Below, piece by piece: positions 2,830 to 48,132 of a DNA stretch of 64,000 nucleotides. The translations under genes and the position numbers were made by a program. A model generated the notes under the pieces. That model worked only from the letters and a program-made list of their open reading frames with translations. It searched no databases and was not told the origin of the DNA. The DNA is from Lineus longissimus (lineage: Eukaryota > Nemertea > Pilidiophora > Heteronemertea > Lineidae), in assembly GCF_910592395.1 (NCBI RefSeq), contig NC_088314.1, forward strand, positions 5,766,001-5,830,000, in the 5' to 3' direction. Within the stretch, counting starts at the first letter, position 1. Each line of letters begins with the position of its first letter.

Positions 2830-5800
2830 ATGAAAATCGATCAAAACAAACTCAAGAAAGGCACGTCGGAAGTGGTAAGTTGATCAGTAATATCAAGTTT
2901 GTCTATTTGAAATAACATTATGAATCTGAGTTTGAAATATTTGAAAACAGACATGGGCCCTTAGACACGTTAATTCAAATAAGATGGTATGACAAAGTCA
3001 TGGCTATTCAATCATGTGATCAGGTTTGAATAGTACAGTATTGCCACATTTACTTTTCCAGCCTGCCGACTGCCGGACGTTGATTGAACGTCTGAAGTCC
3101 TGTAGTCAGGATGACTTGCTTGGAGAATTGAAGCAAATCAAGTCCTGGTCCTATGGAAAGGTAAGACTATTGGTCTCGAAGGTCATCATGTCAGTTTGAA
3201 TAAAACTGAGAAGCTGTGTGATCAATCCCAGAACTATGTACTGAAAATAATGAACACCACGAAGAACAAGGAGATGTGGAAGAGGACTACCAGTCACATT
3301 GCCAAACTTAGAAACCTAAAAACGGTTACATTTGTTTTATAGCCCTCGCACAAGAGTCGACTTGTAAACATATTGTATTGAGGTCTTAGCATTTGTTTGC
3401 ATTTGGTATTTTGTTTTGTTGGCTCAGGGTTTGGACAGCTGTGTTGTACACAACAATGGTGGATTTCAGTGATGTTTTATCAAGCACATATCTGACCTAA
3501 AACTGCAGACTCACAATTCTGAGAAATTCCACCATCTCTCCGATTCTTCTGCTCTTTGGGAGACACCCTGTCTCATCCTTGTTCTCAAAAGATCTGGAGA
3601 GTTCAAATATTTTATCTGTGATATTTCACTGAATGTTGTTTTTTCAGTGCGAGTTGTTCCATTGGGCAGATGTGCTTGATATTTTTGATGAAGTTTTAGA
3701 TAAGGCATGCAGGAGGGAGACTGATACAAAGTGGATTCTCATGTGTGACCTTGAAGGCAATGAGCAGGTTAGTCATTTCTGAAGTCAAGTTGTTTGAGTA
3801 GCATATGCCAAGTTTTAAAAAGGGGCTCATGGCAATACCAAGTTGTGGTTTAAAGAAATACTTAGTTGTCATTTTGTGGATTTCAGTGATGTCGTATCAA
3901 GCACATATCTCAACTAAAAATGCAAACTATCCACAATCAATCTCATTCAGTTCCACTGGTGCTGCTGCCTAGTGCAGGATAACTCCGTTTGAAGTTGTTT
4001 TAAATGCTGTCAGAATTAGCTAGGGGGGGGGGGGGGCAAGTTAGTCCTACTCCTATTCACCCTGTGTTGCATTTTCCAATACTGATTCATTGTCTTCTTA
4101 CCACAAATTACATAATCATCATGTTCTTATCTTTACAAACCACCATCTGTATCTTTCAGTTGAAGGAACTCCTCCTCCAGGTACTCCTGTTCACCGCCCT
4201 TCTGATTGAGCACAGCTTTTCTCGCCATCTCTACAATTCGATGGAGCACTTAACAACCCTGATGTCGTCAAGTGATATGACAGTAGTCCTAGGGGTATTG
4301 AACCTTCTCTACGTCTTTAGTAAGAGGTCCAACTTCATCACGAGGCTGAACATGGAGAAGAAGCAGGCTCTCGTTCTCAGGCTGTCTCACCTGGCAGAGG
4401 TGGGTTGTGATATTCTTATCTCTCTCTAATCCTTGCACTCTTGATTTCTTGGACATATTACATTGCCGAGCAAGCTAGATTCTCTGACCCTGAATTTGCT
4501 ATATAAAATCGATACAGATCCGTTGACAAGCGAGGAAATAAATAATATGATTCAAAATGTGTGTATAATAAAAAACAAAATGCAAGGTCTTAATTTCCAG
4601 TTCAGCTCACAAGGTACTGTCTTGTTCAAAATGTCTGACTCGGTATTTCTAAATCAAAAGTAAATGACTTTTTTTGTAGAGCTGGGGAGGAAAGGAGAAC
4701 GGTTTTGGACTCGCTGATTGCTGCCAGGACCTTCCTATAAATGTAAGTTTATTTATCCTCGATTACTAATCATACACAAGTTGACTTGATTTAGATAATT
4801 CAAGATTGTTACCCCAACCCAATTTCAAAGTAAACCCTTGAGTAATGGAAACAGTCCAGACACTGTAGTGATGTGTGCCAGTATCTGGTGGATCTATGGA
4901 TTTAGATGTAACATTTGTAGCTTAGGTGAATTCGCAAATTTCCTTTTGAAGTTGTGGCAGTTCAGTTCCTACACGTATCCATATTGAGTTAAAAATGGGT
5001 GTCCAATAAGTGTTAATATTGTTTGATTTTCTTCTTATAGAAATATCCTGGTAGTGCGACAACACTCCACTTTGAATTCTATGCAGAAGTTAGTGATGAC
5101 AAGTCGGGCAGGAAGGTAAATATTAGGCTAGTGAACCCCAAAGAGTTTGCAGAGTTAGGAGGCCGGTCAGAGTGACCAATCCCCAAAAATTGATGCCTTT
5201 TTGATCAAGTCCATGGCTCTTGAAATGAGTATGCTGGTATAAAAGTTAGCACTGGAATTTATCCAGTTATTTCACTCCTTACAAATTGACACTCCATGTT
5301 TCAGAATACAGCCAATGTAGTTAGCTGTATCCATGTGGATAACTTGGACAAAGTGGAGAAATCTCCTGGAGAGATTATGGAAGAACTTCTCAGAACATTC
5401 GGTGTTCCAGATGATAAACAGGTAATTTCTTAGAGCTATAGAATGTTTGACAGAATGTTGTGTTGTTGCCCAGTGAACTACTTACTTGTTAGCCGACTTC
5501 TGATGGTCTGCCCTTGTGTCTAGCAGTAGCATGACCAGAAGTTAGGAAGAAGCACGACTGAGCCACTATAACCCTATATTTGGGTAGTTAGTATAGCCTT
5601 GTAATAGGCTTAATAAAAATATCATTCTGGTGTTTTCAATTGCTAGTAATTTTTCATTTACTCTTGTTTCAGATTTCGCTCTTCACTCACATTCGATTGG
5701 CGCATGCATTCTCCAAATATGAGCGTAGAATTCAGTGTGTACAGGCACGTCTTCAGGCTATTTCGATCCTGGGTAAGTGACAATATCTTCATTTTTAGGT

Positions 5801-8663
5801 CATGGGAATTCAATTTGTGGGTCATGTGTGCTCTATGTTAGGGTTGCACTGTCGTATCTCCACCCTACAACACTGTGTATTTGGTGGTCGTAAACTGGTG
5901 CTAGATAAAAGTCTGTGACCAGCATCGTTGGATGACAGACATGTGAGCTGTGATCTTGGTTTTTAACTGACACATTTTCCCACAATTTTGTAATGGTAAT
6001 AATCTGATATCAATCAAATAGTCTGGATAGTTTGTTGCACTGTCGTATCTCCACCCTATAACACTGTATTTGGTGGTCGTAAATTGGTGCTAGATAAAAG
6101 TCCGTGACCAGCATCGTTGGATGACAGACATGTGAGCTGTGATCTTGGTATTTAATTGACACATTTTCCCACAATTTTGTAATGGTGATAATCTGATATC
6201 AATCAAATAGTCTGGATAGTTTGTTGCACTGTCGTATCTCCACCCTATGACACTGTGTATTTGGTGGTCGTAAACTGGTGCGAGATAAAAGTCTGTGACC
6301 AGCATCGTTGGATGACAGACATGTGAGCTGTGATCTTGGTTTTTAACTGACACATTTTCCCACAATTTTGTAATGGTAATAATCTGATATCAATCAAATA
6401 GTCTGGATAGTTTGTTGCACTGTCGTATCTCCACCCTATGACACTGTGTATTTGGTGGTCGTAAACTGGTGCTAGATAAAAGTCTGTGACCAGCATCGTT
6501 GGATGACAGACATGTGAGCTGTGATCTTGGTTTTTAACTGACACATTTCTACACAGTTTTTGATAATGTCGACCACTTTTGATTTTATTGAAATAACGAT
6601 TTGTTATAAGTTAGCTTATTATCTTCCAGTGTATTCCAATGCCATTCAAGACAGTGTTAACAGTTTGCTGTACAATGGCTTGATAGAAGAGCTGGTCGAT
6701 ATCCTTGAATTGAAGGATCCCAAATTAATGGACATAAAAGCTGCGTCACTTCGAACACTGACATCAGTAATCCACCTGGAGAGGAACCCAAAGTAAGTGT
6801 CGTAAAGAGTCCCTCATTAAGTGCAGTTGGTCAGTTTTTGGTTGGGCTTGTGAATCTCGATCATGATATCAATTTATGATATAATATGCCATAAGCAGTG
6901 AAGCTTCCCAAATAGGTAGTTGTAAGGTTAGCGCCAATCATTTGCTCATTACAGTTTTGATGAAACACGGCCAGCTCAGTGAGCTAACTACAGAGTGCCA
7001 GATTCAGACTCGAAGAATATAGCACCTAGACTTGAAGGTTCTAAGATTTGTTAGAAAGCAGTACGACTCAAAAATTGTTTGCTGCAATGCATTATTTTGC
7101 TAAGTTTTCTTACAATTAATACATATTGCTACAACTCTGCTCTCTTTTCTGTGCATCACTATTATTCTTGCATAAATGCTTCAATGTTGTCATTTGTCTT
7201 AAGTTGTTGTTTAATTTCCAGTTCCAATTTTAGGTTGAATGCAATCATCGATGCCACAGGAGCAGCTTCGTACCATGGATTCCTACCGGTGCTCGTCAGG
7301 ACTTGCATACAGCACATGTCAGGTAGGGGAAATCTTCTGAAGAAACATGATTCCACATCATGTTGTAACTGTTTTGTACCTACATGTATGGCCTTTCAAG
7401 CTGAGTTGTGTTTCAAACTGAGGAAGATTCTCTGTCTTACATGATCCCAGACCAAATAAGATTGGCTGGCACTTCTGCATCGTCCATCCGGGATTATTGC
7501 ACACACTTGCCTCTGGATGAAATCTCTGGAAAATTATAAGTTGTGTAAACGAAAGCCTTGGTGATTTCTCCCTTCTGTCTTGTTGTGATCAGTGCACTGT
7601 GGTATCTCCACCCTTTACTGTATTGTGTATTTGGTGTTCGAAAACCAGTGCTAAAGTAAAGTCAGTGACCAGCATCGTTAGATGACAGACTTAAGAGCTG
7701 TGGTCTTGGTATCAAACTGATACAAAAGTTTCATTCACAATTCGTTGTCTTAAAATTCTTCTATGTAACTATGATGGCAACATTTAAAAAATCTTTCTTG
7801 CAGACAACAACTTGGAATCATTTCCGCTGCCATTTGCTACGGCTCTCTTCTCGTTCTTGTACCATCTAGCAAGTTATGAAAGCGGTGAGTATTCAATCTT
7901 TCAAAAGATTGCTGCAGACGTTGCTGTTTCTTTAAAAATATGCATTTATCGTGGTATCCAGTGATGATTTTTCCACAGATAGGGACAAATGAATATCCGT
8001 GATTAGAATCTGTGCCTGAGGATAACGTGTACGTTCAGGCACACCTGAAAATCCTATGCCCAATCTTGTCTCAAAGGCTTTTGGTAGGCTGCAGTAACTT
8101 GACATACAGTTTCAGTCTATCTTCTCCCTAATACAGGTGGTGAGGCCCTTGAATCTTGTGGCATGATGGAATCCCTACTTAAAGTCATCAACTGGTATGG
8201 TGAAGGCCAAGAACACATCACGGTAAGAATTAACGTTGTCGTTCAGAAGCTGTTGGAAAAGACTAGGCGCAGTCTCAATGAAAGAGTTTTCATGTACGAG
8301 TGTAAATGGATTTCAATGATGGCATGAACAAGCATATGTCTGAAATAAATGTGGACATTTTACGACTGAGAAATCCTTATAATTCAAATGAAGGTTAATG
8401 ATATGAAAGTCGTGGAGATCCAAAAAGATCCATCAGCTTGGTAAATATCATACTGCTTGTGATAAAGGAACTCTTGAATATCATAGGAGTTATTTAAAAC
8501 TCATGCATTCTGCAATTGCTTTCTGCCTCTTTTAACCCTTGAGAATATTGTGCATTTTCAGTTTGTCACGAGGGCAGTGAGGGTTGTTGATTTGATAACA
8601 AATCTGGACATGGCTGCTTTCCAGTCTCATGGTGGACTGTCCGCCTTCATCAACAGATTAGAG
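2830..8663 (+). CDS. HUWE1: HUWE1 exons 1-13 (residues 1-460, armadillo-like DUF908)
   Basis: Exons: 2830-2874, 3062-3160, 3648-3767, 4160-4399, 4680-4742, 5041-5115, 5305-5421, 5673-5772, 6630-6792, 7234-7322, 7804-7884, 8137-8222, 8562-8663. The 5' UTR part of exon 1 begins at 2779. Family signatures include [39 protein letters not shown] and [13 protein letters not shown]. This helical-repeat segment forms part of the ring that holds substrates. Exon 10 to exon 11 skips a short stretch that differs from human ([12 protein letters not shown] against the longer human linker). Confidence 0.95.
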
Positions 8664-11600
8664 GTAAGCCCCGTTACCCCAGTTGTTTGATCTGCATCTC
8701 TTGATTTCAATGATGGCATGAAACAAGCATATGTCTGAAATTCATGAAGACATTCATTCTCTGAGAAATCAAGCTGGAAGTAAATACCTTTGTTTGCACA
8801 TTCTACTTTGAAAGGTTCAAATATGTTTTGTCAGTAGCAAACTCGAACAACATCAGTACTTTGTAAGTCAATTTTAGAGGTCGTGTGATTGAGCATTAAC
8901 TATTGTAATTGGAAGAATCTTTGATTTGAGTCTTCAACTGAATTTTGTCGACTTGAATATGGCAGCATGAAGTCGGTATCACCTGAATTTTGATTTTGAT
9001 ACATTCCAGCATGAAGTTGATATCTGCAGAAAGGAACAACCGTTTGTGATCAGACCAGATCGTAGTGAGTCTGCGAGTGGTCTCGACTCCAACCCTGCCT
9101 CACCTGCTAGCCTTACAAAGAGTGCTTCACCAATGGATATGGATGGAGAAAACAAGCCCAGTGATCATAATGATGCGGTCAATAGTGGTGCCTCTACTTC
9201 AGTTGGGTTAACGAAGGAGCAGAAAGCAGAACTGTATGCTGAGGCTAAAACCGGTAACTAATCTGTTGTTGAATTGCCCATTTCATATTTGTGTTCATGA
9301 CTCATTTTTGTTAAGAAGTCTAAATGTCTAAAGTTTACTTTGACCTTGTGTAAGAGTTGTTCGTGAGTAAGTTGCTCTGCAGTATCTCCACCCTACAGTC
9401 GATCTGGTGGTCTCATTTCAGGATTGACATGTTTCCCCCAAAGGGCTGCTCTTCTCAAGTCCATGCTGAACTTCCTGAAGAAAGCGATACCTGACCCTGC
9501 ATTCTCAGAAAGCATCAGACACTGTGAGTAAATGAAATTAGATCTGTGTATTAGATTCTGTTCGAGAAGACTGTAGCAAATGGATTTCAATGATGGCATG
9601 AACAAGCATATGTCTGAAATAAATGTGGACACTTTTATTCTGAGAAATCCTAACAAATTTGTGATTATTTGAGCTCAAATATAACTTCATGTTGTGCAAC
9701 TGATCTCGGCCAAAGAGGCGAGTCTGTCTGCCGAATCAAACATCAATGAACGAAAAGTAATCATCAAGTTAAATAGTTGCCGCTCTGTTATAATATCAAT
9801 ATCTGTTTTTCCCTTCAGTAATGGATGGATCACTACCACGGTCATTGAAACATATCATCAGTAATGCTGAATACTATGGAGCATCTCTATTCTTGTTAGG
9901 TAAGTTGATCTTGCAGACAAACCTTAGCATTTTGTTTGTTTGATTTCGATGATGGCATGAAACAAGCATATGTCTGAAATTATTGAAGACATTCAATCTC
10001 TGAGAAATCAAGCTAAGAAAATATATATCTGTTGGCACCCAGATATAACTGTGTTGTCAGTTGAAAATAGTAGAGCACGTCGTCAGAAAGATTTGCGATC
10101 ACTCAAGCCTTTATGAATGAACTCTATTGGTGAGTTAATAGCAATCACTATTTCACTTTTCAGCAACTGATGCAGTTACGGTGTACGTATTCCAAGAGCC
10201 CTCCCTGCTGTCGTCCCTGCAAGACAATGGACTAACTGATGTTGTTCTACATGCTCTCCTCATCAAAGATGTAAGTACACATACGGATGGCTTAGCAGCG
10301 ATGATACTAATTCTGCTTTCTCAACTCTATGCTCACATGTTTCATTAGCAAGAAAATGCCATTCAGAGTGGCATTGCTTTAGAAGGAGGTGAGAAAAGAT
10401 TGAAAAATCTGGAAAACGTAAAAGCTTCAGTGGTTAGTTCGTAGTAGTACATAGTGCAGACTGATTTCAATGATGGCATGAACAAGCATATGTCTGAAAT
10501 AAATGTGGACATACAACCTCTGAGAAATCCGTTGCTATGAACATCTAAAAATTGTTGCTTTGATGAAATGTTGCTAACTTTTTCTCCGGCCATTCCAGGT
10601 TCCAGCCACACGCGAGGTATTGGCCTCCCTGCCCAATGTTTTCAGCGCCCTGTGCCTGAACGCTAGGGGTTTGGCGGCATTCGTCCAGTGTAAGCCATTT
10701 GAAAGACTCTTCAAAGTTCTACTTTCACCAGATTATCTACCAGCCATGAGAAGACGCAGGAGTTCCAATCCCCTTGGTGAGGACAAATTTCAATCCATAT
10801 CTACTCTGGTAGTGCTGCATGAATATTCAGGGTATTTTTCTCGGGGGGGTTTTGTGGCATAGTGATGAGTGTACTTCTGCAAGTGGATTCCAGTGATGTC
10901 TTAAAGAGTAAGTAAGTATCTGAAAGACAGATGTAGAGTAGTAAGTCTGAGAAGTCCACTCTTCAGGTCCCTCAGTTATTGTTATCAACCATGTATTAGC
11001 AGGTGAGGAAAAGTAGACCGAAGTAAATAAATGAACTTGGTGTATGATGTTTCTTATTTGCTCGATAGGTGATACTGCTAGCAACCTTGGTAATGCCATG
11101 GATGAGTTGATGCGCCATCAACCTTCCCTCCGATCGGATGCCACAAAAGCCATCATACAGCTGCTCGAAGAGGTCGTATCCATGGGGAAAGATCCAAAAT
11201 ATATTTGCCAGAAACCGCAACCAAAGTCTGATTCCTCAACGACAGTGACCTTGAGGTCACCGACACCCAACGAAGGCACATCCTCTGATGAAGAGGAGGA
11301 AGAAGATGACATTCCGAACGCTCAGAGTCAGACTACACCAACAAAATCTGTTGCATCAGATGTGGAAACTACTCAGTAAGTCAGAAAATCCTGATTGTTT
11401 AATTATGGAATTATGGATTTCAGTGATGGCATGAACAAGCATATGTCTTAAATAAATGTGGACAACTTACCTCTGAGAAATCCTTCAAAATATTTGTTGA
11501 AGTATTATTGCAAAAATGTTTTGTTCTTATCATATTGTTTATTTGTCTTCAGGCCATCCGCAGAACGAACACCAATTCCGTTGATGGATTACGTATTGAA

Positions 11601-29600: not shown

Positions 29601-32600
29601 ATCGTTCAAAGAACTAGTGAATGTAAGATAGACTCAGAGGAAACCAAATCTGGCAAATCTAGTGATAAATCAAAGAAGAAAAGTAGCCAGTCTAGTCATA
29701 GCGGAGAGTTACCGATTTACCGGCCTGAATTGAACGTCGGGCGGCAAAGTGCGCCATCGTGGCTGTCCATAGGATTAGATGCAGCCCTCGGATGTCGGGC
29801 AAATGTCTTCCAGATTCAGCGTAGTGGGAAAAAATCTGGTGGGAATGTGGCGAATTCGGTTGTGACGATTCATCCGCAGGCTTCTCCTGTGGTGTGTAGA
29901 CATGTTCTTGATACTTTGATCTCTTTAGCTAAAGGATTCCCGTGCCACTTTGCGCCGGGCAACAATAAAGCCAAGGAAGTGAAATGTGACACTGAGAAAG
30001 AGAAAGAAAAAGATCTTGATAACAAAGCGAAATCAGCTCCGAGTCTTTCTAGTCCGGCTAGAGCAGGTGGAAGTGCAAAATCTGCGGATGGAAAGGAAAA
30101 TAAGGATACAGAATTCTGGGACTTGTTGATTCGATTAGATAGCTCCACCACGAGTAAAAAAGGGAAGGGTGTACAGCGGGTTCATAGTAATCCGAATCTT
30201 GAGGGTGACACTGACACCATGGATTATGAGTCATCACCTATTGGTCAGTTAATGAGCATGCTTGCCCATCCTGTGATTCGACGGAGCCAGTTGTTAACAG
30301 ATCGCTTGCTACGTCTTCTTGGACTTGTATCTGTCGGATTACCAGAAATGAACAATTCAAGTGCTTTAGCGAACGCCATAAGCTCATCGACACCTGTGAC
30401 GAGCTTGGCCAGCACTGTGGCACCTGTTCAACCAAGTGTGATTCGTAATGCTGTGGTGGCGCCACCTGTGAGATCAGCCTCGGATGCTGCTGTGCCAAGA
30501 CCAGATGCAGCAGAGTCAATGGAGACAGTGGAGGAGAAGAAATCTGAAGGGACAGATGAGGAACCAATCCTGCCTCAGCAGCTTCAGTTGGCAGTTCAGG
30601 TATGTCCTTTGGTGTAAAAGCTATGAAATCACATGTAACATCCTCATCCTTGTCTAAAGAGCATTTACATTTTTCGAGGCAATTTGTGGTTTGGCTTCTC
30701 TTCTAGCTTCACTATTCGACTGTGCGTTCTGTAATTCTCAAATGATTCACTGGAACAACCCATTATAGCTATCTGTCTCGGTTGTACAGTACTGCATGTG
30801 TTTGACTCTTTTGAGACTCCCACTTAACTGGTTATCTCTGATCATTTCAGGTGCTCACATCCAAGTCATGCTCTGAGGAAGGTCTAGAAGATGCCACCAA
30901 TCTTCTGCTCCAGCTTTCCAAAGCTAATAATCCCACAAGGGCCACAGTGCTCGATCTTCTCCTGATGGGAGCACAGGAGCTGGGACAGACGGTCTGTGCC
31001 CATATCAGGTGAGAAACAGAATTGCATATTTCAATTTCTCTCGTATTTTCGATAAGCTTCCTGTTGCGTGCGAGCAATCGGATGAAAAGTTTTCATTGGG
31101 TGCTTGTATCGCACACCCACTGGTTTCAGATGAAAGAGAAAAGGAAGACTTTGTGACTGATAATCAACGTTTGACTGAATATACTTATAAGGTATCAATC
31201 ATTTCCTTCCAGGACACTACTACAGGAGATTCAAGAAATGTGCGTCAAAGTCTTGGAGACAGACGAGGACATGAATGAAGCAGATGCATTGGCAGCATCT
31301 TCTCAGCCAAAAGGTGTCATCGCCGATCGCTTTGGAGGCGGCAGCATGATCGTCGTGAACGCCCCAACAAAAATCAAAGTGGGTCGCGAGCTTCAGTTAC
31401 CGTCTATGGTTTTGCTAACGAATAAGACGTCAAGTCAGCAATTCTTCCTCCGGATTCTGAAGGTCATTATCCAGTTGAGAGAGGCGGCGAGATTGGCCGC
31501 TAGGAAAGCTAAAAAAGCAGGTAAGACCCTTTCCCTGGAATTGGCAGATTCAAGTCATGAAAATTGAGTATCCAGCTGCTCTTGTGCTCATCAGTCTCTA
31601 CAAGTCAGAAAAGGTTCAATCTATCTTTCAGAAGCCATGGCTAATCTTGAAGCAGAAGCCGAGGCCATCATGGAGATGGTGGGGCGACGTGATCGTTTGG
31701 AAACGCAGCGACAGGAAAATCGCGAGGGAGAAGGCGCACTGGAGATCACCATTTCAGGCAGCATATCTCAGCAAGCATCTGTTGAGAGTAGGGATACGCC
31801 AATGGATGTGGATCAACCAAGTAAGATTGCTGTCTTCTTGGAACAAGAAAGGCATCTCACCGTAGTTCTTTACATTATCATTCCACACATTCCTTAGATC
31901 CACTCCTGGGACAGCCACCATCTCGTCCTCTATGGATGGTTCATGTCCAGCAACTTTATCGGTTGTACCGTCGGGGGTGCTTGAGTCATTAGTGTGTCAG
32001 AGTAATATACCTCCACTGTTGGTCCATGGCCTGAGCTCGTCGATCAGAGGCTTTCTGATTGGTGCCTTGTGTTCAGGACTAAACCAATGATGGGGACATT
32101 TCTCATTCATTTGATTTTACTTTGGTTAAAGTTATCTTTTCCCATTGCAAATTTAAATGCCTGCAAACTTTATCCAGTTTACAGTGATCAAAAGACTTCA
32201 TTCCTTTGTTTCTTTACATCATCATTCCACACATTCCTTAGATCCACTCCTGGGACAGCCACCATCTCGTCCTCTATAGATGGTTCATGTCCAGCAACTT
32301 TATCGGTTGTACCGTCGGGGGTGCTTGAGTCATTAGTGTGTCAGAGTAATATACCTCCACTGTTGGTCCATGGCCTGAGCTCGTCGATCAGAGGCTTTCT
32401 GATTGGTGCCTTGTGTTCAGGACTAAACCAATGATGGGGACATTTCTCATTCATTGGCTCTCGTGAATAAATTCAAACAGTGAAGTTCAGTTAAAAGAGC
32501 AATGCTCTTTGAAATTCCAGGTGCCATATCAGCAGAACCAAGCAAGCCAGTTGAGAAAAAGAAAGAAGAGAAAGAAATTCCCTTGCCTCGTCTGAGCGAC

Positions 32601-35527
32601 CTTCTGAAACTGGATGACCTGTGGGAGACACTCGGTGAATGTTTGACAGAGCTCGCGAAGACACCTGATCATCACGCTGTTCTTGTTCTGCAGTCTGCTG
32701 TTGAGGCTTTCTTCATTGTTCATGCTGGTAAGATCCTGTAGCCTTTCTAGCTGAGTCTAAACATCACCAGTGATGATTGTAGTTGATAAAGTTACATTCG
32801 AATTGAACACAAAAAAGTACATGATATAATGATAGGCTCTGTCTGAGAAGAAATCATCTTTCAAATATATCACAGAATGTGTAATATCGTAATTGTTTTA
32901 CTTTAGGTGAGAAAGATACCCGGAAACCTCGCGACAGTGCTGCTCAACGACGGGAAGATCAGCTTGCTCACCTGAATGTGGACATCGGCATGCCAATGTC
33001 GCCGTTACCAGCCGCCTCCAGCAGCCAAGATGTCATTGGTCTGTTGACGCGAGAGAACTCAGTTGCTTCAGTTGTTTCCATGACGTGTAGTCTTCCACCT
33101 GATACACAGAAATTCCTCAAATTTGCTGGTAAGTGTTGGCCTGCTCATAAATCCTATGATGGCATTGTCATCAGGTCTTGGTCCAGCCCATCGATTTCCC
33201 AACATGAATGATGTCTTAATCAGCTACTTACGAGCAAATGCAGTTCACTCTGTATGTACACTGAAAATAAACGGTTCTCTGACATGTTGGCACGTTAACT
33301 TCGATTAAAAAAACAACACCTGTTGTTATGTTGTAAAGAACTCGCTAGTTGTATGAAATTATGAATCCAATATCAATATTCTTACTTGATTACCTTCCAG
33401 AAACGCATAGGACTGTTCTGAATCAGATTCTGCGCCAGTCCACCACCCCATTAGCAGATGGGCCGTTCTCAGTTCTTGTCGATCATACCAGGGTCTTGGA
33501 CTTTGATGTCAAACGCCGCTATTTCCGTCAAGAACTTGAGCGTATGGATGAGGGAATGCGGCGGGAGGATGTTGCCGTCCACGTGCGTAGGGAGCACGTA
33601 TTTGAGGATTCGTTCCGAGAGCTTCATCGCCGTACACCAGATGAATGGAAGCATAGATTCTACATTGTATTCGAAGGTAAGAAGTTGTTCAGATCAAGTT
33701 GAGCACTTAAAAACTTATAAACAAAATTTTGCATACCGTGTTAGCTCTGGCTCGGTGTAAACCTATTTGACATAGTAAGTGCCCAATTAAATTGCACTTG
33801 TCAGATCTGTGGAGATGCTTGCAACCATGAGATCTACCAAGATAGATACTGGACCAAATCAAGGAATTTGTGGTTTGCTCAAGATAAGAATTTCTATTAC
33901 TTGCAGGTGAGGAGGGCCAAGATGCAGGTGGGCTGCTACGAGAATGGTACCTTATCATCTCACGTGAGATCTTCAACCCAATGTACGCCTTGTTTGCCAC
34001 ATCGCCTGGTGATCGTGTCACGTACACCATTAACCCCTCGTCGCATTGCAACTCGAATCATCTAAGTTACTTCAAGTTCGTTGGACGCATCATCGCCAAA
34101 GCTATCTATGACAACAAATTGCTCGAGTGCTACTTCACAAGGTCATTCTACAAGCATATCTTAGGAGTATTAGTCAAGTAAGTAAGCCCTTGTCCTTAGC
34201 TGATACATGCCTGGTCCTTGAGCTTCACCAGGGATGAAAAAGTGGTGACCATCCCTGCAATTGGCACCACCCAGTACTAGAATCAGAAAGCTGCCATACC
34301 TTGGCAAATCTGAAATGGTAGTGCATTGAATAGTAACGATGGGATTAGGACCTGTATTGTGTGTTCGTGTGAATGTTATCTGCCATTGAAATATTCACTT
34401 ATTTTCTTCAGGTACACGGACATGGAAAGCGAGGACTATGCTTTCTACCAGGGCCTTGTCTACCTGTTGGAAAACGAAGTAGAACACTTAGGCTACGATC
34501 TGATGTTCAGCACAGAGATCCAAGAATTTGGTGTAACAGAAACAAGGGAGTTGAAGTCAAACGGCAAAAACCTATTGGTGAATGAAGATAACAAGAAAGA
34601 GTATGTCAAGTTGGTTTGTCAGATGAAGATGACTGGTGCTATTCGGAAGCAGCTGAATGCTTTCTTGGAGGGCTTCTATGATATCATTCCAAAGAGGCTC
34701 ATCTCCATCTTCAATGAACAGGAACTCGAGCTGTTGATTTCTGGATTGCCGACCGTTGACATCGATGACCTCAAGTCGAACTCTGAATATCACAAGTATC
34801 AGCCAAACTCTTTACAGGTAGGTTTGATTTGGATGTTGATGTTTTTTCTTTCCAATTACACTAATTGATGCCAAACAAAAATACTACTTCATGATTGCCC
34901 AATGGTTGAAAGCTTGATCCTTCCTGTTGAAACTTGACTCAAATACTGAAACGCTGAAACGGCTCAAAATTGAATATCATTTTGCTTACAGATCCAGTGG
35001 TTCTGGCGTGCTCTGCGCTCATTTGATCAGGCTGATAGAGCAAGATTCCTACAGTTTGTAACTGGTACATCTAAGGTGCCTCTCCAAGGTTTCGCCTTCT
35101 TGGAGGGCATGAATGGTATCCAGAAATTCCAGATTCACAGGGATGATAGATCAACAGATCGTCTGCCGTCTGCTCACACATGGTAAGTCATTGTTCTTTA
35201 TGGAAATTTGGGGAGAAAATGAATTTTCTTGATGATTAGTCGTGACACTAGACCAATAAGTTCTTTGGTTGTGTATCTTTACAACCCAGTTGAAACCTAA
35301 GATGACATTCAGTTTAGACTGATATTTCTGATTGAAAATCTTTTAGTCCACAATGGTTATAATGTAATGAGCATTTCTGATTTGGTATCTGCTTGAAATC
35401 ATGTTTTATTCCTCTGTTTTTCAGCTTCAACCAGCTTGATTTGCCCGCCTATGAGACGTACGACAAACTGCGTGGTATGTTACTGCTGGCTGTGAATGAG
35501 TGCTCTGAGGGTTTTGGCTTGGCTTAG
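2830..35527 (+). CDS. HUWE1: HUWE1, giant HECT-type E3 ubiquitin ligase (64 coding exons)
   Basis: This is an E3 ligase that transfers ubiquitin from an E2 through a HECT cysteine to substrates. Known substrates in other animals include p53, MCL1, MYC and histones, and it acts in nucleus and cytosol. I placed 64 exons with GT-AG introns. They total 13,374 nt, or 4,457 residues plus stop, against 4,374 in human, and all phases are consistent. The ATG at 2830 opens [10 protein letters not shown], matching the family N-terminus, and it follows an acceptor at 2778, so 51 nt of 5' UTR share this exon. Domains in order: N-terminal armadillo-like DUF908/DUF913 region (about 1-1,300), UBA (~1,372-1,416), UIM (~1,431-1,447), WWE (~1,655-1,722), acidic tract (~2,315-2,530), UBM repeats (~3,093-3,198), HECT (~4,110-4,457). 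The frame is intact. The introns carry many snoRNAs. Exon coordinates are given in the block entries below. Confidence 0.97.
3457..3534 (+). ncRNA. box C/D snoRNA, family A variant (HUWE1 intron 2)
   Basis: Terminal stem TGGTGGATTT / AAATTCCACCA, C-like box GTGATGT at 3469, D' CTGA at 3492, D CTGA at 3519. The guide before D' reads TCAAGCACATAT. Ten bases (CAAGCACATA) complement UAUGUGCUUG, a stretch I recall from 28S rRNA (GUAUGUGCUUGGCUGAG). The D'+5 rule would place methylation on the first G after UAU. The scaffold resembles the U27-like copies but the guide differs. Confidence 0.65.
3876..3956 (+). pseudogene. decayed copy of the intron-2 snoRNA (HUWE1 intron 3)
   Basis: Shares GTGGATTTCAGTGATGTC and the guide TCAAGCACATAT with the intron-2 snoRNA. 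D' has become CTCA and the terminal D box is lost (CTCATTCAG where CTGAGAAAT is expected). Likely non-functional. Confidence 0.55.
5845..5975 (+). ncRNA. box H/ACA snoRNA, family B copy 1 (HUWE1 intron 8)
   Basis: About 131 nt in two hairpins. The first has outer stem GCAC/GTGC and inner stem CCACC/GGTGG enclosing a pocket. The H box AGATAA is at 5903. The second hairpin includes GTCTGT / ACAGAC. The ACA box at 5970 lies three nt from the 3' end. This is the standard hairpin-H-hairpin-ACA plan of a pseudouridylation guide. I could not assign the target. Confidence 0.75.
6036..6164 (+). ncRNA. box H/ACA snoRNA, family B copy 2 (HUWE1 intron 8)
   Basis: Near-identical to copy 1, including H box AGATAA and terminal ACA at 6159. 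It lies 191 bp downstream with the same intervening sequence, so it arose by tandem duplication. Confidence 0.75.
6225..6355 (+). ncRNA. box H/ACA snoRNA, family B copy 3 (HUWE1 intron 8)
   Basis: Third member of the tandem array, 189 bp after copy 2. H box AGATAA and ACA at 6350 are kept. The 5' hairpin closes with GTGCGAGATAA instead of GTGCTAGATAA. Confidence 0.75.
6416..6546 (+). ncRNA. box H/ACA snoRNA, family B copy 4 (HUWE1 intron 8)
   Basis: Fourth array member, ending with ACA at 6541 about 80 bp before exon 9. Both hairpins and the H box are intact. Downstream sequence diverges from the shared spacer here, marking the array's right edge. Confidence 0.75.
7593..7727 (+). ncRNA. box H/ACA snoRNA, family B copy 5 (HUWE1 intron 10)
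   Basis: Diverged family B member. The inner stem is CCACC / GGTG, the H box is AAAGTA in GCTAAAGTAAAG, and the 3' hairpin keeps GTGACCAGCATCGTTAGATG. The final ACA is at 7722 in GATACAAAA. It is closer to the second copy in intron 23 than to the intron-8 array. Confidence 0.7.
8307..8377 (+). ncRNA. SNORD27: box C/D snoRNA, U27 (SNORD27)-like (HUWE1 intron 12)
   Basis: Terminal stem GGATTT / AAATCC, C-like box ATGATGG at 8316, D' CTGA at 8340, D CTGA at 8366. The D' guide ends ACAAGCATATGT. Eleven bases pair with 18S CAUAUGCUUGU plus a G-U at the next position. The fifth base upstream of D' faces A27 of 18S rRNA, the site methylated under U27 guidance in human. The odd point is the last base of box C, G instead of A. 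Confidence 0.78.
8700..8773 (+). ncRNA. SNORD27: box C/D snoRNA, U27-like (HUWE1 intron 13)
   Basis: Stem CTTGATTT / AAATCAAG, box ATGATGG, D' in GTCTGAAAT, D CTGA at 8761. Guide ACAAGCATATGT is intact. The stem bases differ from the intron-12 copy but compensate, so pairing is preserved. Confidence 0.78.
9010..14638 (+). CDS. HUWE1: HUWE1 exons 14-25 (residues 461-1,296, DUF913 region)
   Basis: Exons: 9010-9253, 9422-9523, 9819-9899, 10164-10270, 10599-10776, 11069-11375, 11553-11781, 12115-12360, 12681-13339, 13501-13623, 14069-14142, 14481-14638. Conserved stretches include [54 protein letters not shown] and [17 protein letters not shown]. Exon 14 carries a Ser/Asp-rich linker longer than in human. 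Exon 19 ends in an acidic EEEEEDD stretch, as in vertebrates. Exon 22 (659 nt) is unusually long for this gene. Confidence 0.95.
9374..9414 (+). pseudogene. fragment of family B H/ACA snoRNA (HUWE1 intron 14)
   Basis: GCAGTATCTCCACCCTACAG followed by TCTGGTGGTCTC matches the inner part of the family B 5' hairpin. The H box and 3' hairpin are absent and the exon-15 acceptor follows at once. A truncated relic. Confidence 0.5.
9581..9650 (+). ncRNA. SNORD27: box C/D snoRNA, U27-like (HUWE1 intron 15)
   Basis: Stem GGATTT / AAATCC, box ATGATGG, intact guide ACAAGCATATGT, D' CTGA, D CTGA just before GAAATCC. Almost the same as the intron-12 copy. Confidence 0.78.
9939..10012 (+). ncRNA. SNORD27: box C/D snoRNA, U27-like (HUWE1 intron 16)
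   Basis: Stem TTGATTT / AAATCAA, box ATGATGG, intact guide before D', D CTGA before GAAATCAAG. It pairs most closely with the intron-13 copy (both have GAAGACATTCA in the second half). Confidence 0.78.
10461..10531 (+). ncRNA. SNORD27: box C/D snoRNA, U27-like (HUWE1 intron 17)
   Basis: Stem CTGATTT / AAATCCG (one mismatch), box ATGATGG, intact guide and D', D CTGA at about 10520. Confidence 0.75.
10882..10960 (+). ncRNA. box C/D snoRNA-like, family A scaffold with another guide (HUWE1 intron 18)
   Basis: Stem AGTGGATTC / GAAGTCCACT, C-like box GTGATGT at 10893, D' CTGA at 10920, D CTGA at 10947. The guide region reads GAGTAAGTAAGTAT and does not match the U27 target. No target assigned. 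Confidence 0.6.
11415..11483 (+). ncRNA. SNORD27: box C/D snoRNA, U27-like with damaged D' (HUWE1 intron 19)
   Basis: Stem GGATTT / AAATCC and guide ACAAGCATATGT are intact, but D' is CTTA instead of CTGA. Methylation guidance from D' is probably weakened. Terminal D CTGA is present. Confidence 0.6.
11893..11964 (+). ncRNA. SNORD26: box C/D snoRNA, U26 (SNORD26)-like (HUWE1 intron 20)
   Basis: Perfect 8-bp stem CACACTGT / ACAGTGTG, C box ATGATGA at 11901, D' CTGA at 11925, D CTGA at 11954. The guide before D' (TTGAACTCTCTC) complements GAGAGAGUUCAA, which I recall near position 390-400 of 28S rRNA. The rule of five would point to an A in that repeat, the type of site given to U26 in human. 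Target naming is from memory. Confidence 0.72.
12480..12552 (+). ncRNA. SNORD27: box C/D snoRNA, U27-like with damaged D' (HUWE1 intron 21)
   Basis: Stem GTAAATTT / AAATTTAC is perfect and compensatorily changed. Box is GTGATGG, guide ACAAGCATATGT is intact, D' has become CAGA, D CTGA is at 12540. Confidence 0.6.
13674..13804 (+). ncRNA. box H/ACA snoRNA, family B copy 6 (HUWE1 intron 23)
   Basis: Both hairpins kept (CCACC/GGTGG; GTGACCAGCATCGTTAGATG), H box AGAGTA in ATAGAGTATC, ACA at 13799. First of two copies in this intron. Confidence 0.72.
13847..13977 (+). ncRNA. box H/ACA snoRNA, family B copy 7 (HUWE1 intron 23)
   Basis: H box AAAGTA, ACA at 13972, 173 bp after copy 6. Its 5' hairpin (CCACCCTTTACTGTATTG) is like the intron-10 copy rather than its neighbour, so the pair is not a simple recent tandem duplicate. 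Confidence 0.72.
14262..14333 (+). ncRNA. box C/D snoRNA, U31-like family C copy 1 (HUWE1 intron 24)
   Basis: Stem CACTA / TAGTG, C box ATGATGA at 14269, D CTGA at 14325. Guide TCCAAGCTCAACAGGT differs by one base from the other copies. Confidence 0.7.
14734..14810 (+). ncRNA. box C/D snoRNA, U31-like family C copy 2 (HUWE1 intron 25)
   Basis: Stem CACCAG / CTGGTG, C box GTGATGA, D CTGA at 14799. The guide GTTCAAGCTCAACAGGT before D pairs over 14 bases with CCUGUUGAGCUUGA of 28S rRNA (recalled). The fifth base from D faces the G of CCU-G-UUGAG. I believe that is the site served by SNORD31 in human and snR67 in yeast. Confidence 0.78.
14902..16235 (+). CDS. HUWE1: HUWE1 exons 26-28 (UBA and UIM)
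   Basis: Exons: 14902-15150, 15628-15756, 16137-16235. The UBA domain starts at the end of exon 26 (QVNQEQLQQ) and continues through exon 27 ([14 protein letters not shown] ... [11 protein letters not shown]), roughly residues 1,372-1,416, with the MGF loop intact. Exon 28 encodes a ubiquitin-interacting motif, [15 protein letters not shown] (~1,431-1,447), with its acidic patch and the Ala/Ser core. Both domains bind ubiquitin and are colinear with human. Confidence 0.95.
15276..15355 (+). ncRNA. box C/D snoRNA, U31-like family C copy 3 (HUWE1 intron 26)
   Basis: Stem GTCACCAG / CTGGTGAC (with a small internal bulge), C box ATGATGA at 15286, intact guide GTTCAAGCTCAACAGGT, D CTGA at 15342. 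Confidence 0.78.
16969..18682 (+). CDS. HUWE1: HUWE1 exons 29-32 (linker and WWE domain)
   Basis: Exons: 16969-17205, 17482-17753, 18009-18096, 18388-18682. Exon 32 encodes the WWE domain (about residues 1,655-1,722): [12 protein letters not shown], then NNKTIDDAY, then [21 protein letters not shown] domains generally bind ADP-ribose groups or other proteins. The conserved Trp pair and the Gln of the last strand are present. The segment after WWE is Lys/Glu-rich and low complexity. Confidence 0.95.
17849..17930 (+). ncRNA. box C/D snoRNA, U31-like family C copy 4 (HUWE1 intron 30)
   Basis: Stem GTCACCAG / CTGGTGAC, C box GTGATGA, intact 17-base guide directly before D CTGA. Confidence 0.78.
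18201..18273 (+). ncRNA. box C/D snoRNA, U31-like family C copy 5 (HUWE1 intron 31)
   Basis: Shorter stem GCCAG / CTGGC, C box ATGATGA, intact guide and D. The segment between C box and guide differs most from the other copies. Confidence 0.75.
18799..22040 (+). CDS. HUWE1: HUWE1 exons 33-38 (residues 1,753-2,315; BH3-equivalent region diverged)
   Basis: Exons: 18799-18934, 19182-19422, 19759-20113, 20630-20802, 21017-21235, 21479-22040. Clear family blocks are [42 protein letters not shown] and [14 protein letters not shown]. Exon 36 (residues ~1,997-2,054) stands where vertebrate HUWE1 (Mule) has its BH3 motif. Here it reads [18 protein letters not shown] and lacks the L-x-x-x-G-D core, so MCL1 binding by this route is not supported. 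Confidence 0.93.
18982..19057 (+). ncRNA. box C/D snoRNA, U31-like family C copy 6 (HUWE1 intron 33)
   Basis: Stem CGCCAG / CTGGTG, C box ATGATGA, intact guide GTTCAAGCTCAACAGGT, D CTGA. Confidence 0.77.
19489..19671 (+). repeat. duplicated snoRNA plus flank, unit 1 (partner 20335-20520)
   Basis: The region from the family C snoRNA through CCCTCCAGAATCCAGG, TTCAAATCC and TGTGTCACT-like sequence recurs in the next intron at about 20335-20520. Unit 1 has a 13-A run where unit 2 has AAAGAATAATTG. The GGTTCAAATCC in both resembles a pol III B box. Confidence 0.75.
19497..19574 (+). ncRNA. box C/D snoRNA, U31-like family C copy 7 (HUWE1 intron 34)
   Basis: Stem TACCAG / CTGGTA, C box ATGATGA, intact guide and D. 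It is followed by a flank shared with copy 8 (see the duplication entry), with a run of 13 A near 19,602. Confidence 0.77.
20344..20420 (+). ncRNA. box C/D snoRNA, U31-like family C copy 8 (HUWE1 intron 35)
   Basis: Nearly identical to copy 7 (stem TACCAG / CTGGTA, box ATGATGA, same guide). About 100 bp of 3' flank is also shared, so the two introns exchanged or duplicated more than the snoRNA itself. Confidence 0.77.
21311..21388 (+). ncRNA. box C/D snoRNA, family F copy 1 (HUWE1 intron 37)
   Basis: Stem GTCAAG / CTTGAC, C box ATGATGA at 21320, C'-like ATGATGG at 21354, D CTGA at 21378. The region before D reads GATTCACCTTGGAGAA. No rRNA target assigned with confidence. Confidence 0.68.
22127..22203 (+). 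ncRNA. box C/D snoRNA, U31-like family C copy 9 (HUWE1 intron 38)
   Basis: Stem TACCAG / CTGGTG, C box GTGATGA, intact guide GTTCAAGCTCAACAGGT and D CTGA. The most 3' member of the family. Confidence 0.77.
22287..23846 (+). CDS. HUWE1: HUWE1 exons 39-42 (acidic tract)
   Basis: Exons: 22287-22535, 22816-22950, 23193-23353, 23735-23846. They encode a Glu/Asp-dominated segment, about residues 2,315-2,533, with long Asp and Asp/Glu runs in exon 41. The segment ends in a block like the human DxDDLIxxxxDMF motif ([17 protein letters not shown]). It corresponds to the large acidic region of vertebrate HUWE1. Sequence identity is low but position, charge and exon order agree. Confidence 0.88.
22645..22726 (+). 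ncRNA. box C/D snoRNA, family F copy 2 (HUWE1 intron 39)
   Basis: Short stem GTCA / TGAC, C box ATGATGA at 22652, D CTGA at 22717. Pre-D sequence GGTTCAACCTTGGAGAA is close to copy 1, differing in the middle. The rest has diverged. Confidence 0.62.
23571..23644 (+). ncRNA. SNORD26: box C/D snoRNA, U26-like copy 2 (HUWE1 intron 41)
   Basis: C box ATGATGA at 23580, guide TTGAACTCTCTC before D' CTGA at 23604, D CTGA at 23633. Imperfect stem AACTCTG / CAGTGTT. Confidence 0.7.
23989..24059 (+). ncRNA. SNORD26: box C/D snoRNA, U26-like copy 3 (HUWE1 intron 42)
   Basis: Stem CACTG / CAGTG, C box ATGATGA at 23996, guide TTGAACTCTCTC, D' CTGA at 24020, D CTGA at 24049. Lies in the intron next to copy 2. 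Confidence 0.72.
24150..28150 (+). CDS. HUWE1: HUWE1 exons 43-51 (residues 2,534-3,062, variable region)
   Basis: Exons: 24150-24471, 25235-25379, 25670-25790, 25982-26160, 26391-26493, 26763-26882, 27156-27249, 27455-27831, 28027-28150. Anchors are [50 protein letters not shown] and [13 protein letters not shown]. Exons 47-51 are Ser/Thr/Ala-rich and align poorly to vertebrates; I include them because splice sites and phases chain without a break. Small exon changes here are possible. Confidence 0.85.
25446..25545 (+). ncRNA. box C/D snoRNA-like, family E copy 1 (HUWE1 intron 44)
   Basis: Long terminal stem ACTGCCT / AGGCAGT around C-like box ATGATGT at 25459 and D CTGA at 25530. The block TCAGCTACTTACGAGCA after box C is shared without change by all three copies, more than the pre-D region. 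Target unknown. Confidence 0.65.
26982..27078 (+). ncRNA. box C/D snoRNA-like, family E copy 2 (HUWE1 intron 48)
   Basis: C-like box ATGATGT at 26997, invariant block TCAGCTACTTACGAGCA, D CTGA at 27064. The terminal stem GCAT / ATGC is weaker than in the other two. Confidence 0.6.
28346..29082 (+). CDS. HUWE1: HUWE1 exons 52-53 (three UBM-like ubiquitin-binding motifs, DUF4414)
   Basis: Exons: 28346-28622 and 28791-29082. Three helix-turn-helix motifs of the LP-x-x-I/L-x-x-x-V type are visible: FLAALPDDIRQEV (~3,095-3,107), [13 protein letters not shown] (across the exon 52/53 junction) and [13 protein letters not shown] (~3,184-3,196). They match the tandem UBM-type repeats of human HUWE1, which bind ubiquitin. 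The motif pair straddling an intron shows the junction is right. Confidence 0.95.
29311..33128 (+). CDS. HUWE1: HUWE1 exons 54-59 (residues 3,252-4,042)
   Basis: Exons: 29311-30599, 30851-31008, 31213-31520, 31632-31820, 32521-32727, 32907-33128. Exon 54 (1,289 nt) is the longest in the gene and opens with [20 protein letters not shown], then [14 protein letters not shown]. Later anchors are [40 protein letters not shown]-type VEAFFIVHA and [14 protein letters not shown]. Joining exon 57 directly to 58 gives an open frame. A 245-bp duplication in the intron between them is described separately. Confidence 0.93.
31866..32455 (+). repeat. direct duplication in HUWE1 intron 57 (245-bp copies, 344-bp offset)
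   Basis: Copies at about 31866-32111 and 32210-32455 differ at only a few bases (TTATC/TCATC, CTATGG/CTATAG). Each starts with an acceptor-like ACATTCCTTAG. Read in the phase left by exon 57, the first copy stays open for about 30 codons and then meets TAG. Another frame is open through most of the copy but does not fit the upstream phase. I treat it as intronic. A poison exon is possible. Confidence 0.8.
33199..33290 (+). ncRNA. box C/D snoRNA-like, family E copy 3 (HUWE1 intron 59)
   Basis: Perfect stem CCAACATG / CATGTTGG, C-like box ATGATGT at 33208, invariant block TCAGCTACTTACGAGCA, D CTGA at 33279. The most 3' snoRNA-like element in the gene. Confidence 0.65.
33401..35527 (+). CDS. 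HUWE1: HUWE1 exons 60-64 (HECT domain, catalytic Cys4424)
   Basis: Exons: 33401-33676, 33907-34177, 34412-34817, 34992-35182, 35425-35527. The N-lobe has [29 protein letters not shown] and [11 protein letters not shown]; the C-lobe has [17 protein letters not shown] and [11 protein letters not shown]. The catalytic cysteine lies in SAHTCFNQLDLP. Its codon TGC is split by the last intron (TG at 35181-35182, C at 35425) and is residue 4,424, 33 residues before the end, the same spacing as human C4341. The protein ends CSEGFGLA, then TAG. Confidence 0.97.
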
Positions 35528-39305: not shown

Positions 39306-39575
39306 TGTTGTATAGTAATTGTAAAACCTTTCTTATGAGTAGCACTGTAATGTGTAATTCTTGGAATTAAGTGTGCGAGATTATTGGAATTGGGTATCAG
39401 ATAAGATACCTGTGAAAATTCCCACGGTCTACTTTTAATCCTCCATTCTCCCCAGCGTGATCAATTACGTCAGCATTGATGCGGCTCCTCATTGGATGGA
39501 GACGCATCAACGTTGCCCCCTGATTGGTGCAGACAAAGCTGCGCGTGAATACAAAACAGCTGTCCGCACGCTCTC

Positions 39576-39613
<38 letters not shown>

Positions 39614-39803
39614 AGCGATAGAGAGTTATTCCAGTCTCCCGAGTATTTTATAATCACGTGCACGAATCGTCATCCCGACGAACTATTTTATCAATTATGA
39701 CTTTGGTGTGTATAATTTTGTGAAGCAGTGTTAGAATAAAGGATCCGGACGTTAGAAGGCAAATTCAGGACTTATTACGTTTGTAACCTGTGCAAATACA
39801 ACA
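39306..39803 (+). repeat. 5' LTR (498 bp)
   Basis: Begins TGTTGTAT, ends ATACAACA (8-bp inverted ends). It contains an (AG)n run near 39582-39609 and an AATAAA at about 39735, the likely R-region poly(A) signal. No difference from the 3' LTR was seen on reading. Confidence 0.95.
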
Positions 39804-39821
39804 TGGCGACCTTCCCAGGAC
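39804..39821 (+). other. primer binding site
   Basis: The first bases after the LTR are TGGCGACCTTCCCAGGAC. TGG pairs with the CCA tail of a tRNA, as expected for minus-strand priming. The tRNA could not be identified. Confidence 0.65.
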
Positions 39822-40350
39822 CTTCAATTCGTGACAGTGAGTCCGGATGCGTTTCAGTCTTGGAGCAGATTCTATTAACCGAGGACTCCGTTTTTCACGC
39901 CACGTGCTAGTGCTACTGCAGTCCATTATGTACATTACGTGTACACCTACGTGATTTCTAACTCGCTCATTTCATCGGGAGGCAGAATAGTGACGTTCGT
40001 TTGTCAATATAATATTTATAAAATCGTGAATTTTTTTCTAAACTGTTCGTGACGTAAGTGCGAATTTCATTATATTTATATATCGTCACTTTTGTTATAA
40101 ATCACTGTGATCGCCATGAATCACTGTGAGTGTGAGCGCAGCATTTTTTAATCGATTGACGGACACCGTCTTCGTCAGTACGCATAGTACACGTCTATCT
40201 CTGTGTGTACCGAACTATTCAACTTCTACATCATGACATGTGCTATAACGTTCACGGATGATGTGCCCAGCAGCCAGAATACTCTTCAATTCGCCCTGAT
40301 GTCTACTCGAGATCCGATACCGTTCCAGGCTCCAGCTGATCCAGCGTTGC

Positions 40351-40470
40351 AGTTTTAAAAGAGACATTTTATCAACTTTTTGAAAGACATTTTATAAACT
40401 TTTGAGAGACATTTGTAAACTTTTTGATAGTCATTTATATTAACTGTTTTGAAAGACATTTTATAAACTA
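40351..40470 (+). repeat. tandem ~26-bp repeats in retrotransposon leader
   Basis: Four to five imperfect units of the type AGACATTTTATAAACTTTTG follow each other in the untranslated leader between the primer site and gag. Confidence 0.7.
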
Positions 40471-40804
40471 ATTAGTAATAGGACAATATTTTTGTGCATC
40501 ATTTCCATGTTGGCAGAGTATAGTACAATACTTTGCAATATCAGTCGATTCATAGCATTTAATGCATTTAATCTTAAATTTTCACTCGTTATTGCAAACT
40601 GACTGGAACCGGACCCCGAGGATTTTGACAACTGTATATCTATAATATGAACTTTGTTTAGCTTTGCCCTGTTACAGCAAGATAGACAACGGACCAACCC
40701 AACCTTTAATGTTGCATTTACTTTTCAGAAGAAATTAACTTTTGCTTCCCAAATACCTGACTTTTTATTCCTTCATAACTAACTTTTACCCCTTTACAGT
40801 AATA

Positions 40805-47862: not shown

Positions 47863-48132
47863 TGTTGTATAGTAATTGTAAAACCTTTCTTATGAGTAGC
47901 ACTGTAATGTGTAATTCTTGGAATTAAGTGTGCGAGATTATTGGAATTGGGTATCAGATAAGATACCTGTGAAAATTCCCACGGTCTACTTTTAATCCTC
48001 CATTCTCCCCAGCGTGATCAATTACGTCAGCATTGATGCGGCTCCTCATTGGATGGAGACGCATCAACGTTGCCCCCTGATTGGTGCAGACAAAGCTGCG
48101 CGTGAATACAAAACAGCTGTCCGCACGCTCTC

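Follow-up and report, generated by a model that had tools for sequence, protein, structure and literature searches.

Predicted snoRNA genes of many kinds, densely set in the introns of HUWE1 in Lineus longissimus

Genes that host snoRNAs in their introns are mostly related to the ribosome or to translation, and loads above about 10 are, to our knowledge, rare among protein-coding hosts. The SNORD115 and SNORD116 copies lie one per intron in a non-coding host. These imprinted loci, with their large tandem C/D arrays, are one likeness to the locus described here (PMC11028025, available portion). Another is the Drosophila minifly gene (mfl; DmSnR60 a-d, snoH1, snm60 a-b), a protein-coding host in which repeated copies of one C/D snoRNA and an H/ACA snoRNA lie one per intron, DmSnR60 being some 70 nt away from the 3' splice site (PMC1821038, available portion); a third is provided by the ribosomal-protein genes of sponges, invertebrate protein-coding hosts with copies in neighbouring introns (PMC3412847, available portion). 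Among the matches listed in the open-licence literature, a body that leaves subscription papers mostly outside and that includes the available portions of PMC7016697 and PMC8172852, none presents HUWE1 as a snoRNA host.

The window, by which we mean the whole 64,000-nucleotide stretch analysed, holds what appears to be an intact HUWE1 gene on the + strand. A home-made gene finder, using codon use and splice-site weights, returned a model that codes for 4417 residues in 65 exons, its frame open throughout (0 internal stops). Against human HUWE1, two open frames of the window score E=7e-92 and E=3e-56, and two pieces of the model (985 residues, E=0; 1267 residues, E=4.5e-285) are colinear with it; the human comparison consists of these two pieces of the 4417-residue model and the two open frames, and the end of each piece's alignment falls outside the portion inspected. 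With WWE and HECT domains also found, the colinear homology bears out the identification of the host as HUWE1 made in a prior sequence-only reading. Its start codon lies at 2830 and its stop codon at 35525-35527, directly after SEGFGLA; the last exon of the model, at 36590, is false, the stop having come already. The first exon was absent from the model, and once the false last exon is also removed 64 introns result, 39.7% of the modelled span being exonic. One exon runs on to 10777 instead of stopping at 10689, and further small errors in the model are likely.

Just downstream of HUWE1, at 39306-48360, stands an LTR retrotransposon whose open reading frames encode reverse transcriptase, RNase H and integrase domains and whose two 498-bp LTRs are 100% identical, which indicates a recent insertion. 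Tandem repeats follow at 50708-51503 (period 301) and 60958-61403 (period 144).

The introns of HUWE1 contain 35 apparently intact snoRNA genes, 26 of box C/D and 9 of box H/ACA type, in 30 of the 64 introns (Table 1). With 3 relics the total is 38 elements in 33 introns, spanning 3456-33290, every one on the + (sense) strand. Twenty-seven of the 30 introns with intact elements have one each, and the other three have 4, 2 and 2. The sequence-only reading had reported at least 33 such elements, all sense and nearly always one per intron, and our count of 35 intact-looking elements plus 3 relics, the strand of all 38 and the 27 single-element introns agree with it; its six families were too low a number, for we count ten kinds (D27, D121, D81, F2, F4, one H/ACA family, SNORA53 and the singles 7950, 10882 and 21313). 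All elements fall within predicted introns, as had been claimed, a placement that is partly by construction, the final gene model having been barred from placing exons on elements. Three exons of the unmasked model lay on elements: 3428-3458 (31 nt), 18199-18260 (62 nt) and 24056-24079 (24 nt). Against the first two stands the colinear alignment between the masked model and human HUWE1, which crosses each junction without a gap of that size (at GK|CEL for one, in the WWE exon for the other); the third disappeared with the masking.

Table 1. Positions of the host gene and of the putative snoRNA genes and relics in its introns (position 1 is the first base of the window).
Feature	Position	Strand	Evidence
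HUWE1 host gene	2830..35527	+	start codon to stop codon, ~65 exons, 64 introns; ab initio models + human homology
SNORD121A-like C/D snoRNA	3456..3535	+	42.8 bits (gathering 44); 11-bp closing stem
Relic, SNORD121A-like copy, without D box	3873..3938	+	sequence read
H/ACA copy H1, first of tandem array of four, period ~191	5845..5977	+	repeat, alignment, fold
H/ACA copy H2	6036..6166	+	repeat, alignment
H/ACA copy H3	6225..6357	+	repeat, alignment
H/ACA copy H4	6416..6548	+	repeat, alignment
H/ACA copy H5	7593..7727	+	alignment
Single C/D snoRNA, 11-nt antisense to 28S TGTCCCTATCT	7950..8029	+	box scan, guide
SNORD27-like copy a	8308..8376	+	53.9 bits (gathering 52)
SNORD27-like copy b	8700..8773	+	Rfam sub-threshold; box scan; alignment
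Relic of H/ACA family, 5' part only	9367..9412	+	nhmmer E=5.8e-5; sequence read
SNORD27-like copy c	9582..9650	+	Rfam sub-threshold; box scan
SNORD27-like copy d	9935..10016	+	Rfam sub-threshold; box scan
SNORD27-like copy e	10459..10533	+	Rfam sub-threshold; box scan
Diverged D27/D121-like C/D element, changed guide	10882..10960	+	box scan, profile
SNORD27-like copy f, D' box changed	11415..11483	+	Rfam sub-threshold; box scan
SNORD81-like copy a	11893..11964	+	box scan, guide; no own Rfam match at E<=1
SNORD27-like copy g, D' box changed	12480..12552	+	Rfam sub-threshold; box scan
H/ACA copy H6	13674..13806	+	alignment
H/ACA copy H7, sub-threshold SNORA8 match	13847..13979	+	25.1 bits (gathering 38)
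F2 copy a, guide CAAGCTCAACAGG at D box (SNORD12/snR107 target site)	14262..14333	+	box scan, guide
F2 copy b	14734..14810	+	box scan, guide
F2 copy c	15274..15357	+	box scan, guide
F2 copy d	17847..17932	+	box scan, guide
F2 copy e	18201..18273	+	box scan, guide
F2 copy f	18982..19057	+	box scan, guide
F2 copy g	19498..19574	+	box scan, guide
F2 copy h, younger duplicate of g or reverse	20344..20420	+	box scan, guide; flank comparison
Single C/D snoRNA, guide TTCACCTTGGAGAA at D box, string common to Rfam Afu_294	21313..21387	+	box scan, guide
F2 copy i	22125..22204	+	box scan, guide
SNORD81-like copy b	23570..23645	+	27.2 bits (gathering 50); box scan, guide
SNORD81-like copy c	23990..24057	+	31.1 bits (gathering 50); box scan, guide
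F4 copy a	25446..25545	+	box scan, profile, guide
F4 copy c	26989..27074	+	nhmmer E=1.4e-15; sequence read
Relic of D27-like copy	28692..28740	+	nhmmer E=2.6e-4; sequence read
SNORA53 copy a	31884..32100	+	98.7 bits (gathering 38)
SNORA53 copy b, tandem, 99% identical	32228..32444	+	98.7 bits
F4 copy b, weak partial match to Rfam snoR12	33199..33290	+	box scan, profile

The C/D elements were sought in bases 1-40500 by a scan for a C box, a D box and a closing stem, with the - strand and six order-2 Markov sequences as controls. At a score of at least 14 the scan gave 25 candidates on the + strand, 2 on the - strand (one of which attains score 20) and 0-1 per Markov sequence; at 12 or above there were 27 on the + strand, of which 25 were kept and two with score 12, 16246-16322 and 35223-35339, were dropped as chance. 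Family profile searches added two relics and one intact copy that the box scan had missed, F4c, recognised by profile and sequence reading as the 26th C/D element (its coordinates were two bases off in the intron-placement analysis, counts being unaffected). A RUGAUGA-like C box, a CUGA D box and a closing stem are thus found in 26 elements, and the boxes and stems that the sequence-only reading saw are indeed there. A de novo H/ACA scan was not discriminating, with 7 hits on the + strand (4 overlapping known copies) against 3 on the - strand, and missed five of the nine known H/ACA elements. Outside the elements, the eight guide strings searched for are absent from both strands of the window.

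Curated family models recognise few of these elements. At gathering score the 64 kb yield three Rfam matches, SNORA53 twice (RF00563, gathering 38; 98.7 bits in both copies) and SNORD27 once (RF00086, gathering 52; one copy of seven above, at 53.9 bits, and the remaining six at 38.2-49.3). The other 32 of the 35 intact elements score below gathering or remain unmatched in Rfam at E<=1, this being judged for 7950 and 10882 as parts of longer queries. The best SNORD121A score is 42.8 bits against a gathering score of 44 (RF01191), although the guide string does not differ from the consensus of that model; SNORD81 (RF00136, gathering 50) reaches 31.1 and 27.2 bits, the third copy having no match at E<=1; and H7, the single copy of its H/ACA family submitted, reaches 25.1 bits with SNORA8 (RF00393, gathering 38).

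All seven SNORD27-like (D27) copies carry the 11-nt string ACAAGCATATG. It is antisense to the 5' region of 18S; the fifth base is an A, and the predicted mark is the 18S A in CAUAUGCUUGU, which we take to be the A27 site of SNORD27. The complement of this guide is contained in an 18S primer from the 5' region (PMC7883443, available portion). Guide and D box are invariant among the D27 copies, with identities of 0.93 for the C box, 0.86 for D', 0.65 for the stretch from D' to D and 0.24 for the flanks, the same as random. Compensatory change is present in the terminal stems of D27 and the SNORD121A-like (D121) element: stem covariation in an alignment of seven D27 and one D121 sequence is 0.279 against 0.124 +- 0.040 in shuffles, 0 of 500 of which reach it. 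The three SNORD81-like (D81) copies have 11 nt antisense to the SNORD81 site of 28S, again with A as the fifth base, so that the 28S A in GAGAGUUCAA is their predicted mark. For the D121 element at 3456 and for element 10882 no antisense target was found; the latter may have a new specificity or be an orphan.

The largest family, F2, has perfect antisense of 13-14 nt to 25S/28S CCUGUUGAGCUUGA in all nine copies, adjoining D and not D'. The D-box rule points to the fifth base, which here is the G in CCUG and occupies the fourth place of the 14-nt target; in S. pombe 25S the fourth of residues 2480-2493 is G2483, the snR107 site, with human G3878 as the SNORD12 equivalent (PMC11971394, available portion), and F2 is predicted to mark the 28S G that corresponds to human G3878. 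Antisense target and predicted base are common to F2 and to SNORD12/B/C in ZFAS1, S. pombe snR107 and yeast snR190, but the antisense of the latter lies upstream of D', whereas that of F2 lies upstream of D (PMC11971394, available portion). Whole-RNA similarity to Rfam SNORD12 is absent for F2c submitted alone at E<=1 and for every F2 copy in the sub-threshold Rfam search. This, with the placement of the antisense, rules out plain SNORD12; F2 probably works like SNORD12, snR107 and snR190 and is not filed as such. C box, guide and D box are 100% identical in the nine copies, the linker after the C box 0.45, and the flanks 0.22 upstream and 0.31 downstream (random 50-mers 0.23, range 0.19-0.27), the downstream excess fitting the flank common to F2g and F2h. 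These two, 91% identical over 183 aligned columns, are a younger duplication. Stem covariation in F2 is weak (0.244 against 0.176, 25 of 500 shuffles reaching it), partly because the row of F2a is out of register.

String CAGCTACTTACGAG is present in all three F4 copies and is antisense to 28S AGUAGCUGG next to a degenerate D'; checked on copy a, the pairing needs that degenerate D' and one G-U pair. A D-box guide for the whole family was rejected, as only copy c fits 28S well. The Rfam family snoR12 has a guide like that of F4, with a weak match (E=0.43), and snoR38 matches better (E=0.16). The single element 21313 has 13 nt antisense to 28S and meets eight Rfam C/D families at E<=1, the best being Afu_294 (E=0.0027) and seven weaker; its match to SNORD12, at 20.7 bits (gathering 43), concerns another target than that of F2, and with several weak C/D matches we withheld a family name. 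Element 7950, with an 11-nt 28S match, has weaker evidence. Altogether 21 of the 26 C/D elements have rRNA antisense at D or D' (F2 9, D81 3, 21313, the weaker 7950 and D27 7), a count that F4 would raise to 24.

The H/ACA family has the form hairpin-H box-hairpin-ACA, with boxes in all seven copies (by alignment; H box ANANNA) and a consensus fold, in which 0 of 32 pairs show compensatory two-sided change; among single-sequence minimum-energy folds the full two-hairpin form is clear only for H7. Four copies occupy one intron as a tandem array at 5843-6548 (3.7 units of 191 bp), and the two SNORA53 copies share another within a tandem duplication at 31866-32455 (spacing 344). A pseudouridylation pocket generally lies some 14-16 nt from its box, and the U-to-ACA distance is 15-16 nt in all seven H copies. 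Their 3' pockets form 12-13 Watson-Crick pairs with 18S ACCA[UA]AACGATGC, and their 5' pockets pair with CGA[UN]AGATAC over 10-12 positions, with one G-U pair included in H5-H7. In all seven the best targets of both pockets fall in one 18S stretch, with uridines 25 nt apart, in a search of a printed fragment covering part of 18S (PMC6245355, available portion) and three LSU contigs, with pocket limits set by hand after the 18S match had been noticed by eye. The 18S U in GACGAUNAGAUACC and the 18S U in ACCAUAAACGAUGC are the predicted marks.

As 28S reference we used contigs present as contaminants and recognised by Rfam as eukaryotic LSU. Eukaryotic rRNA genes in three bacterial MAG records and one IMG/VR contig (L001, L002, L003, L004) look like contamination. 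Against the LSU contigs, 10 of 11 antisense matches of at least 13 nt on the + strand of 3001-36700 fall in elements, which make up 3562 of those 33700 bases, and the - strand has 5 in total. At 11 nt, 15 of 63 fall in elements on the + strand (48 outside), with 65 on the - strand; this signal vanishes against background, and 11-nt matches were therefore used only with other evidence. Further predicted 28S marks are the A in GUAGCUGG, the C in UCUCCAAGG and, weakly, the C in UGUCCCUAUC. Eight rRNA sites are predicted in all, so the locus would be rich in copies rather than broad. Within the introns, the end of a C/D element is at least 65 nt from the 3' splice site, a minimum matched by 1 of 20000 uniform placements (P=5e-5), with P=0.028 for the distance to the 5' splice site and a median to the 3' splice site of 113, near the null of 103. 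The minimum agrees with a splicing-coupled spacing rule (PMC1821038, available portion). Between pairs of D27 or of F2 copies homology mostly stops within a few bases of the element ends, running past them for 97 nt in F2g/F2h and for 12-13 nt in D27b/D27d and D27c/D27f.

Host gene, intron location, boxes, stems, guides and the pattern of conservation can all be read from the DNA, and we consider it very probable that the elements are canonical intron-encoded snoRNA genes copied within one host, HUWE1. The pre-mRNA would be transcribed and spliced, the excised introns debranched and trimmed back to the closing stems of the snoRNAs, and the RNPs assembled; C/D snoRNAs would then direct 2'-O-methylation of rRNA five bases from D or D', and H/ACA snoRNAs pseudouridylation at the pocket. 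This is the established pathway, set out in part in the available portions of PMC11028025 and PMC1821038. The copies probably arose by repeated intron-to-intron duplication of whole snoRNAs inside HUWE1, with selection keeping the guides while linkers and flanks decayed. Transcription, processing, the modifications and dose as the keeper of copies are inferred. The dense, multi-family snoRNA host proposed earlier is thus well supported by the sequence; its description as a major rRNA-modification locus fits in copy number only, most guides being repeats and eight sites being predicted.

Alternative readings share much of this evidence. Chance C/D-like motifs in introns, which the two score-12 matches judged chance and the - strand candidate at score 20 might recall, are contradicted by the - strand and Markov controls, and Rfam matches and repeated families with invariant guides speak against them too; we give this reading practically no credence. 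Neutral snoRNA birth and death, in which a handful of expressed copies would suffice for each family and the others are passengers becoming relics, has more in its favour and is nonetheless improbable. Three relics among 38 elements, one younger duplication (F2g/F2h), two tandem arrays and the altered D' boxes of D27f and D27g are what it would lead one to look for, but neutral loss should have spread further than 3 relics against 35 intact elements, and should not have left guide, C and D boxes unchanged in nine F2 copies with linkers 45% identical.

That homology in D27 and F2 pairs mostly ends near the element ends would also suit snoRNA-derived mobile elements, such as those reported for platypus, dense here by happenstance. 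All copies are in sense orientation with guides intact, and outside HUWE1 the 64 kb contain no copy save weak profile hits (E 0.03 at 40110 and 0.082 at 53388, both +; others weaker), and we judge mobility a very remote explanation. A role in cis, steering HUWE1 splicing or intron retention with rRNA guiding secondary, could account for half of the introns being loaded, and cis-regulation by intronic snoRNAs has been reviewed (PMC11028025, available portion); the fit of the guides to rRNA with canonical box spacing counts against it, and we find it quite unlikely. We therefore retain the reading of canonical snoRNA genes copied within HUWE1.

A ligase gene with about 35 snoRNAs would be one of the most heavily loaded protein-coding hosts. 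The ligase itself targets ribosomal proteins made in surplus: yeast Tom1 degrades unassembled ribosomal proteins, and human Huwe1 does so for overexpressed RPL26 (PMC5026473, available portion). A functional link between the ligase and its snoRNA load, by way of such surplus proteins, is possible. One might go further and suppose, as a rather doubtful extension, that in this lineage these guide RNAs come chiefly from HUWE1, selection for dose having multiplied the copies. The pre-mRNA of the ligase would then also release up to 35 guides at a time, in fixed proportion, which modify rRNA and help it fold, and protein surveillance would be tied to rRNA maturation at a single locus; F2 would be a solution for the SNORD12/snR107 site that arose independently or by rearrangement and was multiplied to nine copies. 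The locus is also a natural experiment: nine copies of one guide with decayed linkers reveal what selection preserves in a snoRNA, and their number raises the question of whether rRNA modification is limited by snoRNA dose.

Set beside the known systems, the parts of this locus are ordinary; the host gene and the copy number are unusual. Where mfl carries seven ncRNAs in the gene of a pseudouridine synthase (PMC1821038, available portion), HUWE1 here carries 35 in that of a ubiquitin ligase. Where SNORD115 and SNORD116 combine orphan guides with imprinting (PMC11028025, available portion), HUWE1 combines a protein-coding host with guides to conserved rRNA sites. The sponge hosts, unlike HUWE1, are ribosomal-protein genes with single or duplicated copies (PMC3412847, available portion). 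And the Rfam families SNORD27, SNORD81, SNORD121A, SNORA53, SNORA8, Afu_294 and snoR12 resemble the elements here in guide or in whole RNA, whereas in HUWE1 most are amplified, and no more than three elements attain the curated thresholds.
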